From contig JBBCHM010000001.1 of the NCBI GenBank assembly GCA_037200045.1, forward strand, positions 2,728,001 to 2,792,000: a stretch of 64,000 bases of DNA, in the 5' to 3' direction. Below are positions 2,720 through 5,731 of the stretch, in pieces (within the stretch, counting starts at the first letter, position 1; every line of letters begins with the position of its first letter). The translations under genes and the position numbers were made by a program. This DNA is from Rhizomicrobium sp. (GTDB lineage Bacteria; Pseudomonadota; Alphaproteobacteria; Micropepsales; Micropepsaceae). The notes under the pieces were generated by a model. That model did not search any database. It was not told the DNA's origin and worked only from the letters and a program-made list of their open reading frames with translations.

Positions 2720-4120
2720 ATGGCCCCGCACGGCAGCAACCAGACCAAGCATTGGCAGGCGCTCGACGCCGCCCATCACGTCCATCCCTTCAGCGACACC
2801 GCGGCCCTCAATGCGGAGGGCGTGCGCGTCATCACGCGCGGCAAGGGCGTCTATCTGTGGGACAGCGAGGGCGGGAAGATCATCGACGGCATGTCCGGCC
2901 TGTGGTGCGTGCAGGTCGGCTACGGCAACGAGGAATTGGCCGAGGCGGGCTGCGAAGCGCTGCGCACGCTTCCCTACTACAACCACTTCTTCAAGACCTC
3001 GAATCCCTGGACCATCGAGCTCGCCGCGAAGCTGGCGACGCTGCTGCCGGACGGCCATGAGCGCATCCTGTTCGCCAATTCCGGCTCGGAGGCGAACGAC
3101 ACCGCGCTCAAGCTGATCCGCTATTACTGGAACCTGAAGGGCAGGCCCGACAAGAAGATCCATCTGTCGCGCGACTACGCCTATCACGGCGTGACCCTGG
3201 CGGCGGCGTCGCTGTCGGGGCTGACACCGATGCATCCGCAATGGGACCTGCCGCTGCCCGGCTTCGAGAAGGTGCCGGCGCCCTATTGGTACGGCGCGAA
3301 GGAGGCCGGTTATGGCGACATCGCGCCGGCCGAGTTCGGCCTGCTGATCGCCGGGAAGCTGGAAAAGAAGATCCTGGAACTGGGGCCGGATAGCGTCGCG
3401 TCCTTCTCGGCGGAGCCGGTGCAGGGCGCGGGCGGGCTGATCTTCCCGCCGCCGACCTATTGGCAAGAAGTGCAGCGCATCTGCGCCCGCTACGACGTAC
3501 TGCTGCATCTGGACGAGGTCATCACCGGCTTCGGCCGCACCGGCGAATGGTTCGGGGCGCAGACTTACGGGATCGCGCCCGACATCCTGACGATGGCCAA
3601 GGGATTGTCCTCCGGCTACCAGCCGATCTCGGCGATCTCACTGGGCGAGCGCATGGCCGACACGATCCTCAATGCCAATGAGGAACTGGTGCACGGCTTC
3701 ACCTATTCCGGCCATCCGGTGGCCTGCGCCGTGGCGCTCAAGAACCTCGAAGTGATCGAGACGGCCGGTCTGGTGTCGCGCGTGAAAACGTCGATCGGTC
3801 CCTATCTGCAGCGGCGCCTGGCGGAGACCTTCGCGGATCATCCCATCGTCGGCGAGGTGCGCGGCGAGGGACTGCTCGCGGCGGTGGAGCTCGTGCGCGA
3901 CAGGAAGGAGCGCAAATTCTTTCCCGATCCGGGGAACATCGGCACGCTTTGCCGCAACCACTGCTTCAACGACGGGCTCGTCTGCCGCGCGATCCGCGAC
4001 ACGATGGTGCTGGCGCCGCCGCTGGTGGTTTCCGAGAGCGAGATCGAGGAGATCGTGGCGAAACTGAAAAATGCCGTCGATCGTACGGCCAATGATTGCG
4101 GCAGGATCGCGCCCGCGTGA
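2720..4120 (+). CDS. Class III (omega) aminotransferase
   Basis: A 466-residue PLP-dependent class III aminotransferase of the putrescine/taurine/beta-alanine:pyruvate type. Visible marks are GLWCVQVGYG in the N-terminal substrate region, the phosphate-binding FANSGSEAND segment, the cofactor aspartate in LHLDEVITGFGRTGEW, and the Schiff-base lysine K294 in MAKGLSSGYQP. The family moves an amino group from an omega-amine or beta-amino acid to pyruvate or 2-oxoglutarate. The donor cannot be read from sequence and the neighbours give no pathway. Full length; transcription is probably monocistronic behind a structured leader. Confidence 0.9.
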   Translation: MAPHGSNQTKHWQALDAAHHVHPFSDTAALNAEGVRVITRGKGVYLWDSEGGKIIDGMSGLWCVQVGYGNEELAEAGCEALRTLPYYNHFFKTSNPWTIELAAKLATLLPDGHERILFANSGSEANDTALKLIRYYWNLKGRPDKKIHLSRDYAYHGVTLAAASLSGLTPMHPQWDLPLPGFEKVPAPYWYGAKEAGYGDIAPAEFGLLIAGKLEKKILELGPDSVASFSAEPVQGAGGLIFPPPTYWQEVQRICARYDVLLHLDEVITGFGRTGEWFGAQTYGIAPDILTMAKGLSSGYQPISAISLGERMADTILNANEELVHGFTYSGHPVACAVALKNLEVIETAGLVSRVKTSIGPYLQRRLAETFADHPIVGEVRGEGLLAAVELVRDRKERKFFPDPGNIGTLCRNHCFNDGLVCRAIRDTMVLAPPLVVSESEIEEIVAKLKNAVDRTANDCGRIAPA

Positions 4121-4260: not shown

Positions 4261-4289
4261 TTGCAATGTGTGGCTTCGATGCATAGCTT
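4261..4289 (+). promoter_or_regulatory. Sigma-70-type promoter of the candidate small RNA
   Basis: TTGCAA (4261-4266), a 17-bp spacer, then TAGCTT (4284-4289), at the end of a conspicuously AT-rich stretch (about 4190-4270) in an otherwise GC-rich region. The predicted transcription start, 6-8 nt downstream, falls at about G4297, exactly where the first stem of the predicted RNA begins. Confidence 0.55.
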
Positions 4290-4296
4290 GCTTATC

Positions 4297-4440
4297 GAAG
4301 GATGAAACATCGCCTGGCAAGCACTGCCCCCCCGCTCGCAAGCCGGGTGACATCCTTCACCGGTGCCGGTCATCCCCTCCCGGCACCAGCGCGTAACGGC
4401 GCATCCGGCGCCCGGTTGGCCCCCCAACCGGGCGTCATTT
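4297..4440 (+). ncRNA. Candidate trans-acting small RNA with C-rich loops
   Basis: The 314-bp gap between the aminotransferase and alkB holds a self-contained transcription unit of about 140 nt. It has a promoter (4261-4289), a first stem GAAGGATG (4297-4304) / CATCCTTC (4351-4358), a second stem GGTGCCGG (4362-4369) / CCGGCACC (4380-4387), and a terminator hairpin. The single-stranded parts are rich in C: CTGCCCCCCCGC in loop 1 and TCATCCCCTC in loop 2. The latter is complementary to GGAGGGGA-type Shine-Dalgarno sequences, as in alphaproteobacterial CCUCC-motif small RNAs. The next gene is on the other strand, so this is not a leader. No 6S, SRP or tmRNA features fit. Confidence 0.55.
4410..4440 (+). 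terminator. Rho-independent terminator of the small RNA
   Basis: Perfect 10-bp stem GCCCGGTTGG (4410-4419) / CCAACCGGGC (4424-4433) with a CCCC loop, followed by GTCATTTTATTT. It lies 290 bp beyond the aminotransferase stop, too far to be its ordinary terminator. It may also stop minus-strand transcription out of alkB. Confidence 0.8.
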
Positions 4441-5058
4441 TATTTGGGTGATACGCCTCAGAGTCAGGTTTATCCGCCCGCCGCCGGGGACGAGCTGGGA
4501 ACTGCCGGCGATGACGCGGTCTATGCCGTGGAACATCAGCCGGGCCGGTCCGCCGAAGACGAGCACGTCGCCGGACGACAGCGTGATGCTCTGGGTCGGT
4601 CCCTTGCGGATCGTGCCGCCGAAGCGGAACAGCGCCTCGTCGCCCAGTGAGACCGAGACCACCGGCGCCTCGGTCGCCTGCTCGTCACGATCCTGGTGCG
4701 CGCCCATTTTCGCGGACCCGCGATAGAGATTGACCAGGCAGCACTCCGGCGGCGCGGGAAAGTCCGCGACCGCATCCCACAGCTTCAGCAGCGCAGGCGG
4801 GATATCCGGCCATGGATGGCCCGTGTACGGATGGCGTGGCGCATAGCGATAGCCTGCGCGATCCGACACCCAGCCCAGCGGCCCGAAATTGGTCTCCTCG
4901 ACCGAGAACGGCTTGCCCGATATCGGCATGACCGGCTTGTAGAACGGCGCCGCCTCGACACGCGCCAGCACGTCGGCGAGCAGGGTCCGCTGGCTTTCGC
5001 GGGAAAAGTATTCGCGCCACAGGGCCACGCCGGGCGCCAGCGCCAGCGGCCTCACCAT
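4435..5058 (-). CDS. alkB: AlkB-type Fe(II)/2-oxoglutarate dioxygenase
   Basis: 207 residues, the size of E. coli AlkB (216). The ATG at 5058 gives the compact family length and overlaps the upstream gene by 7 bp; an in-frame extension further upstream is a shadow of that gene. The iron ligands are seen as HQDRDE (HxD) and the distal histidine in LMFHGIDRV. The 2-oxoglutarate-binding arginines are in GRINLTLRR. The family removes N1-methyladenine and N3-methylcytosine damage from DNA and RNA by oxidative demethylation. The overlap places it in one transcript with a tyrosine phosphatase. Confidence 0.93.
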   Translation of the reverse strand: MVRPLALAPGVALWREYFSRESQRTLLADVLARVEAAPFYKPVMPISGKPFSVEETNFGPLGWVSDRAGYRYAPRHPYTGHPWPDIPPALLKLWDAVADFPAPPECCLVNLYRGSAKMGAHQDRDEQATEAPVVSVSLGDEALFRFGGTIRKGPTQSITLSSGDVLVFGGPARLMFHGIDRVIAGSSQLVPGGGRINLTLRRITQIK

Positions 5059-5675
5059 TGCCAGCGGTTGGCCGGCGCGGGCTTCTCGAAGATCGCCTTG
5101 AACGTGTCGCTCCGGCCCCGTGCCGCCAGCCAGTCGCGCAGGCGCTCCGGCGTGTAAACCGAGCGGATCCAATTCGCGATGGGAATGCCCTCGGCATCGT
5201 CCTGCGCGAATTCGATGAAGTGGCGCAGCCAGCGCTGTTCCGGCTTCGGAAAATGCAGATAGGGCCAGCGGGCGAATTGCGCCCGCGCCGGCGCCATCGC
5301 GCTCCAGCCGCCCCGATGCAGGAGATAGAGCGCCGCCGCCAGGCTGGTGCGGTCCTGCCCGCCGGAGCATTTGACGAGGAACGGCTTGGGCGCCGCGTCG
5401 AACGCCTCGATCAGCGCGACCAGCATCGCCCGGGTCGGCAGGTGGCGCGAATCGAGCGTCGTGTCGAGATGGGCGACGCCGCGCGCCTGCGTCACGCTTT
5501 TCTCGCCGCGCCACCAGCCGTATTTCGGATTGGGGCCGCGCAGATTGATCATCGCGCGGATGCCGTTGCGGGTCAGGAAAGGTCCCAGCGCTCCCGCCCA
5601 GGCCTGCGCCGCGCGCGCCGCTTCGCCCGGCACGATCCAATGGAAATTGTAAAGGACGTCGCGTGGGGTCCGCAT
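5052..5675 (-). CDS. Dual-specificity/tyrosine phosphatase family protein
   Basis: 207 residues from ATG 5675; a longer start at 5714 would run into the divergent gene's ribosome-binding region. The P-loop signature Cx5R is CSGGQDR at about residues 103-109, inside the typical segment FLVKCSGGQDRTSLAAALYL. A general-acid aspartate may lie in HLDTTLDSR. The fold is the cysteine-dependent DSP type, removing phosphate from phosphotyrosine or other phospho-substrates. Its 3' end overlaps alkB, so the two are co-translated. The physiological substrate is unknown. Confidence 0.8.
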   Translation of the reverse strand: MRTPRDVLYNFHWIVPGEAARAAQAWAGALGPFLTRNGIRAMINLRGPNPKYGWWRGEKSVTQARGVAHLDTTLDSRHLPTRAMLVALIEAFDAAPKPFLVKCSGGQDRTSLAAALYLLHRGGWSAMAPARAQFARWPYLHFPKPEQRWLRHFIEFAQDDAEGIPIANWIRSVYTPERLRDWLAARGRSDTFKAIFEKPAPANRWQW

Positions 5676-5731
5676 GGCGGATATGTAGCGGCGCGGGCTA
5701 TCATCCGCAAACATGCGGGGAGGGTGGCGGC

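Follow-up and report, generated by a model that had tools for sequence, protein, structure and literature searches.

The trans-acting small RNA RusT (CCNA_R0199) of Caulobacter crescentus is 118 nt long and is encoded on the plus strand between lolA (CCNA_03820) and xth (CCNA_03821) (PMC11005374). It consists of four stem-loops; the second carries the conserved nt 45-57 that form the tested seed (with residue C53), and the third shows an Hfq-induced change at nt 72-87, the RNA being bound and stabilised by Hfq (PMC11005374). RusT is induced by iron shortage or high zinc and repressed by NtrX, and via its loop 2 it represses the mRNAs of TonB-dependent receptors and other transporters; upon its overexpression only 23 transcripts were changed, many of them for such receptors and transporters (PMC11005374). 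Published reports of it are confined to Caulobacter and close Caulobacteraceae (PMC11005374). This was the only paper that our literature search on lolA-linked small RNAs found, and a search for xthA together with Sinorhizobium gave no result.

Several other alphaproteobacterial RNAs are comparable to the one described here. SmelA075 and SmelA099 likewise possess several hairpins with anti-Shine-Dalgarno loops, but there identical CCUCCUCCC loops are repeated (PMC3927594), whereas the two loops of our RNA differ from each other (CCCCCCCGCT and TCATCCCCTC). The alphaR8/SisA-D RNAs act on many mRNAs through an anti-Shine-Dalgarno seed, a single-stranded UUUCCUCCCU located 3' of a weak hairpin, and one copy is linked to an N-formylglutamate amidohydrolase gene (PMC12559287). 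Our RNA resembles them as an alphaproteobacterial RNA with a putative seed of this type, but it lacks both the amidohydrolase link and the single-stranded UUUCCUCCCU core, which is absent from 4297-4444. GsrN of Caulobacter, which depends on the general-stress sigma factor, is usually found near the ecfG-phyR locus and promotes katG expression, uses an exposed C-rich 5' loop as its target-pairing site (PMC5869019). Our RNA shares such a loop, but its promoter is of the TTG[AC]AA-N17-TA[GT]NTT type and its neighbours are aminotransferase, alkB and lolA genes rather than ecfG-nepR-phyR. A literature search for anti-Shine-Dalgarno RNAs of Alphaproteobacteria with an Rfam family found nothing.

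The RNA in question lies in a 64,000-nucleotide stretch of a Rhizomicrobium genome (the window). We propose that positions 4297-4444 of its plus strand encode the Rhizomicrobium orthologue of RusT, a reading to which we assign a probability of roughly 0.82. This identification is based on comparing the locus, the length and layout, the hairpin positions and the seed in Caulobacterales genomes with the published description of RusT. As in RusT, there are four hairpins, the last of which is the terminator, the putative seed is in the loop of stem-loop 2, the ancestral site is between lolA and xth, and the host is rich in TonB-dependent receptors. On the other hand, the RNA is longer (about 148 nt vs 118), its gene now lies between the aminotransferase and alkB genes, and its promoter has TTG[AC]AA, a -10 box TA[GT]NTT and a TGTGGC element. 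Moreover, its longer stem-loop 1 bears an invariant C7 loop where Caulobacter-type rows of the class-wide alignment A4 (described below) have a gap.

Architecture and conservation of the RNA gene

On the plus strand, a promoter, four hairpins and an intrinsic terminator form one unit, flanked by a class-III aminotransferase gene on one side and an alkB-type gene in convergent orientation on the other (Table 1). The fold of 4297-4440 reached -81.2 kcal/mol, compared with -52.6 +/- 3.9 in dinucleotide shuffles (z = -7.26; none of 200 as low). The predicted start, G4297, is indeed the first base of an 8-bp stem, as the earlier note on this DNA had claimed, namely of GAAGGATG, which pairs with CATCCTTC. 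That note had also recognized the 8-bp stem of stem-loop 2, but it overlooked the inner 9-bp stem of stem-loop 1, which bears the C7 loop, as well as the hairpin at 4389-4402, and the terminator, for which it had given a 10-bp stem and a T-rich tail, has the tail but a stem of 13 bp. Its view of a free-standing small RNA gene agrees with ours, transcription being predicted: the unit has its own promoter and terminator, a convergent downstream gene and covarying stems. The terminator overlaps the last codon of alkB. The alkB transcript is nevertheless unlikely to end at this hairpin, because the minus strand has no T-run there.

Table 1. Positions in the window of the putative RusT-family RNA, its elements and its neighbouring genes
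Feature	Position	Strand	Details
Promoter	4261..4289	+	-35 TTGCAA 4261-4266; 17-base spacer containing TGTGGC; -10 TAGCTT 4284-4289
Small RNA, probably of the RusT family	4297..4444	+	predicted start G4297, end in T-rich tail at ~4440-4446; fold, covariation, blastn, models R1/R2
Stem-loop 1	4297..4358	+	outer stem 4297-4304/4351-4358; inner stem 4310-4318/4342-4350; GC/GC pair 4321-4322/4338-4339
Loop 1, ACTGCCCCCCCGCTC	4323..4337	+	core CCCCCGC, putative second seed; invariant columns, 49 sequences
Stem-loop 2	4362..4387	+	GGTGCCGG/CCGGCACC (4362-4369/4380-4387); loop TCATCCCCTC 4370-4379
Stem-loop 3	4389..4402	+	GCGC-GTAACG-GCGC; position corresponds to Hfq-responsive stem-loop 3 of RusT
Intrinsic terminator	4407..4446	+	13-bp stem 4407-4419/4424-4436, CCCC loop, tail ATTTTATTTG
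Class-III aminotransferase gene, upstream	2720..4120	+	PF00202, E 5.3e-86
alkB-type 2OG-Fe(II) oxygenase gene, convergent	4435..5121	-	stop codon 4435-4437, domain 4438-5121; PF13532, E 2e-56

Of 96 genomes from the same family, 58 contain the RNA unit by blastn (two further matches, L020 and L021, are not the RNA). In an alignment of 49 sequences of near relatives (A1), the loop 1 core CCCCCGC and the loop 2 TCCCCTCC are invariant, the latter in 49/49, and the stems vary; the anti-Shine-Dalgarno-type loops noticed earlier are thus two invariant C-rich loops. The earlier note had made its reading depend on compensatory changes in the stems, and these are plentiful: when the structure of the window RNA is applied to this near set, 33 of its 44 pairs show changes on both sides, and cells with such changes number 269, against 89.6 +/- 9.7 in shuffles (0/500 as high), all slid versions of the structure scoring far lower. 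All 17 outer and inner pairs of stem-loop 1 have changed on both sides in relatives. Stem-loop 3 is 99.5% paired, with both-side changes none among near relatives and present class-wide.

The promoter proposed earlier, TTGCAA-N17-TAGCTT, has both elements in place, and 43 of 49 relatives have the pattern TTG[AC]NA-N16-18-TANNNT ahead of the RNA, vs none of 49 control windows. Conservation reaches beyond the hexamers in 48 relatives (AAAAtagTTG.AAacTGTGgC.t...TGCATAg.tT); in a simple sigma-70 scan of the window this promoter fell below the calling threshold. In addition, 33 of the 66 promoters of alignment A4 contain a GTGGC/GTGTC/GTGAC element some 10-30 bases ahead of the RNA start, where about 10 would be expected from control windows; this element could be a regulator site.

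With Rfam 15 at gathering scores, neither the window nor 40 loci of relatives gave a match. Matches to P15, ctRNA and tfoR that appeared at relaxed thresholds are due to chance, as they lie far under their gathering scores. The earlier note could not tie the RNA to any known one, which holds for Rfam, but the covariance-model matches at the lolA-xth locus do tie it to RusT.

The lolA-xth locus and the extent of the family

A pattern scan of GTDB genomes found both loops, among the matches listed, in Rhizomicrobium, Maricaulis, Marinicaulis and other Parvularculaceae, and also in a Hyphomicrobiales draft, a Rhodospirillales draft and Alphaproteobacteria bacterium SO-S41. The covariance model R1, whose training set contained no Caulobacter-type sequence, accepts these matches, with E down to ~1e-20 in Maricaulis, Marinicaulis and other orders. 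Pattern matches in Bosea, Planctomycetota, Streptomyces, Aeromonas, Oscillospiraceae and the PVC group are not matched by R1 and were rejected as chance. At E <= 0.01, R1 matched 75 of the 386 class genomes searched; for the Caulobacterales, at E <= 0.001, the figure was 111 of 249. In Caulobacterales genomes of 5.1-5.6 Mb the matches are weak (E 2.6e-5 to 7.5e-4 per genome) and of constant size, Caulobacter-type copies scoring only 28-34 bits; the whole series is nonetheless continuous, from 163 to 28 bits, with one match per locus. Each named genome searched has one strong copy, and second matches begin at E ~1e-3; since these occur beside strong ones, R1 matches with E above ~1e-4 per genome are doubtful unless supported by synteny. 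Double copies in two Maricaulis drafts proved to be the same RNA at two contig ends.

This support is provided by the gene neighbourhood. The weak Caulobacterales matches that we read (CCGTGCCGGACCTATCCCCTCCCGGCGGCGGCATGAGAGACC) have a LolA gene on one side and an exodeoxyribonuclease III gene on the other: 20 of 20 (L265-L284) adjoin lolA and/or xth, and the order is ftsK-lolA-RNA-xth wherever all members were seen. The copies of Maricaulis, Marinicaulis, Hyphomicrobiales and Rhodospirillales also stand in the order lolA-RNA-xth. A second model, R2, was built from alignment A4 of 66 sequences, which has 91.5% standard pairs and both-side changes in 43 of 44 pairs. At E <= 1e-4 it matched 72 of 387 class genomes; across 150 genomes of the phylum it matched 9 alphaproteobacterial ones (the window's own included) and 1 from outside the class. 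Synteny was checked for 20 R2 matches outside the training set, 19 from the class and 1 from outside. In 18 of the former 19, lolA and/or xth lies no more than 3 kb away, on the strand of the RNA and in the expected order; the latter has neither gene within that distance. Across many alphaproteobacterial families (L265-L284, L215-L234, L366-L383) the gene order ftsK-lolA-RNA-xth is retained, and the RNA itself varies much more than its neighbours.

At the window locus, xth does not adjoin the RNA, and lolA (G000:C1 2725315-2725812, in the window's own genome of 4.73 Mb, G000) is encoded on the same strand some 5 kb upstream of the aminotransferase gene, so that orthology by position requires bridging loci. 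Such loci exist, with the orders aminotransferase-RNA-xth (L096, L112, L194, L213, L217) and lolA-aminotransferase-RNA-alkB (L097, L101, L106). Through them, and with lolA upstream on the same strand, the RNA can be traced back to the ftsK-lolA-RNA-xth locus. A class-III aminotransferase gene stands directly 5' of the RNA in several families (the window, L096, L099, L112, L194, L213, L217). The genus also holds Rhizomicrobium electricum DSM 21034; in the part of it that includes R. electricum (L008, L013, L034, L036, L044), the alkB-type gene was not found beside the RNA, and a PTP-like gene (window 5052-5714, minus strand) adjoins it.

The putative seed of loop 2 in the window, TCATCCCCTCCC, aligns with the tested seed of RusT, nt 45-57. 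When one Caulobacterales copy (L266) is counted from the start of its match, nt 45-57 read ACCTATCCCCTCC and a GAGAG...CTTTC hairpin falls at about nt 71-86; in alignment, the loop 2 TCCCCTCC of near relatives corresponds to TATCCCCTCC of Caulobacter-type copies. The latter have a shorter stem-loop 1 with no C-rich loop. The window RNA and many non-Caulobacter relatives carry a C6-7 loop there, which in near relatives varies no more than loop 2 and so suggests a second seed. Other families show loop variants, e.g. CCCCUCCC together with CCCCCCUCC in L215/L216. In one family (L215, L216, L383) the RNA at the RusT locus has CACATCCCCTCCCTTGGTG as loop 1 and GGACCCCCCTCCTGG as loop 2, a different seed pair. 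Taken together, we lean towards the view that RusT represents a single branch within an old alphaproteobacterial family, class-wide in extent and fixed beside lolA/xth, of which a common non-Caulobacter form would have two seeds, the invariant C6-7 loop of stem-loop 1 and the invariant ATCCCCTCC loop of stem-loop 2, jointly controlling outer-membrane receptor synthesis.

One might argue that an unrelated small RNA has converged on the same anti-Shine-Dalgarno loop, the likeness to RusT being confined to this C-rich loop and the terminator. C-rich loops do recur in RNAs of the class (SmelA075/099, PMC3927594; alphaR8/SisA-D, PMC12559287; GsrN, PMC5869019), and the low R1 scores of the Caulobacter-type copies would fit such a scenario. 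Convergence, however, would not predict the same genomic locus, and this strongly disfavours it, given lolA/xth beside 20/20 and 18/19 matches and the bridging gene orders; the unbroken series of scores, with a single match at each locus, speaks against it too, and we regard it as very improbable. Slightly less credible still is the idea that the aminotransferase transcript ends in this RNA, which would then have no gene of its own and be either derived from the 3' UTR or just a terminator region. This would be in line with its position shortly downstream of the aminotransferase gene, on the same strand, in several families, but the promoter is conserved at a nearly fixed distance in 43/49 relatives, and the RNA is also kept at loci that lack the aminotransferase and have lolA upstream. 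As to a small protein, an ATG frame is present (49 codons, 4302-4451, plus strand), but the compensatory stem changes and the length changes of loops and stems in relatives would break any frame, which leaves this explanation with hardly any weight. An RNA gene orthologous to rusT is therefore the reading that we retain.

Candidate targets and a possible mode of action

The window's genome contains 47 Plug-domain receptor genes. With one Shine-Dalgarno rule applied to the start sites of receptors and controls alike, GGGG was found in the start regions of 36/46 receptors vs 45/253 controls (p 2e-15), and AGGGG in 25/46 vs 19/253 (p 1e-12). An open k-mer search of receptor start regions gave GGGG, AGGGG, GGGGA and GAGGG as top words, each of which lies within GGGAGGGGATGA, the complement of loop 2. 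A run of at least 7 bases matching the seed was seen in 10/47 receptors, compared with 8/253 controls. When the seed was permuted at constant composition, though, the excess of 6-base contiguous matches was reached in 62 of 300 cases, and once the ribosomal anti-Shine-Dalgarno was corrected for, the energy of the duplex between the seed and receptor start regions showed no extra preference. Since the corrected duplex energy shows no such preference, it is the word enrichment that bears the target claim. In G037, a receptor-rich genome with no detectable copy of the RNA, the same words are in excess in receptors vs other genes (GGGG 46% vs 10%, AGGGG 17% vs 2%); AGGGG in receptors is rarer there than in the window's genome (17% vs 54%, p = 0.002). 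Because a weaker excess exists even in G037, we treat the receptor-word excess as support and not as proof. That the receptor genes of both genomes prefer Shine-Dalgarno sequences of the GGGG type may have to do with C-rich regulatory RNAs in general. On these grounds, TonB-dependent receptor mRNAs are plausible targets of the RNA.

It could also be supposed that the C-rich loops imitate the anti-Shine-Dalgarno of 16S rRNA as a general decoy, which would damp translation broadly or titrate G-rich RNAs. There are two such invariant loops, loop 2 contains CCCCUCC, able to pair with Shine-Dalgarno sequences generally, and pairing with the ribosomal anti-Shine-Dalgarno is likewise better for the start regions of receptors. 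Nevertheless, a broad effect is at odds with the 23 transcripts changed on RusT overexpression, many of them for receptors and transporters (PMC11005374), and the words enriched in start regions are AGGGG and GAGGG, not AGGAG. We thus find a decoy unlikely, if somewhat less so than the alternatives discussed above, and prefer a trans-acting RNA of the RusT type.

For such an RNA, the following course of events may be envisaged. Transcription would begin at G4297, and Hfq would hold the RNA at stem-loop 3 and the terminator. The exposed loop 2 (TCATCCCCTCCC) would pair with G-rich Shine-Dalgarno regions (AGGGG, GAGGGGAT), and loop 1 (CCCCCCCGCT), the putative second seed, probably would as well. 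Above all, this pairing would concern TonB-dependent receptor mRNAs, whose translation would be blocked when iron or envelope homeostasis is disturbed. As for the switch, NtrYX control, known for RusT, is by analogy likely to operate here too.

What is new here is the class-wide extent of the RusT family, its gene neighbourhood and its two-loop form. An RNA of an uncharacterised soil genus becomes linked to the measured function of RusT, although in Rhizomicrobium this function is deduced by analogy. RusT would then be a family spread over the Alphaproteobacteria and not a speciality of Caulobacter. If the class-wide family is real, it would represent a regulatory RNA whose gene neighbourhood can be traced over many alphaproteobacterial families and would supply a family missing from Rfam, while the connection between two C-rich loops, receptor mRNAs and iron would become a testable hypothesis in Maricaulis, Marinicaulis, Rhizomicrobium and others.
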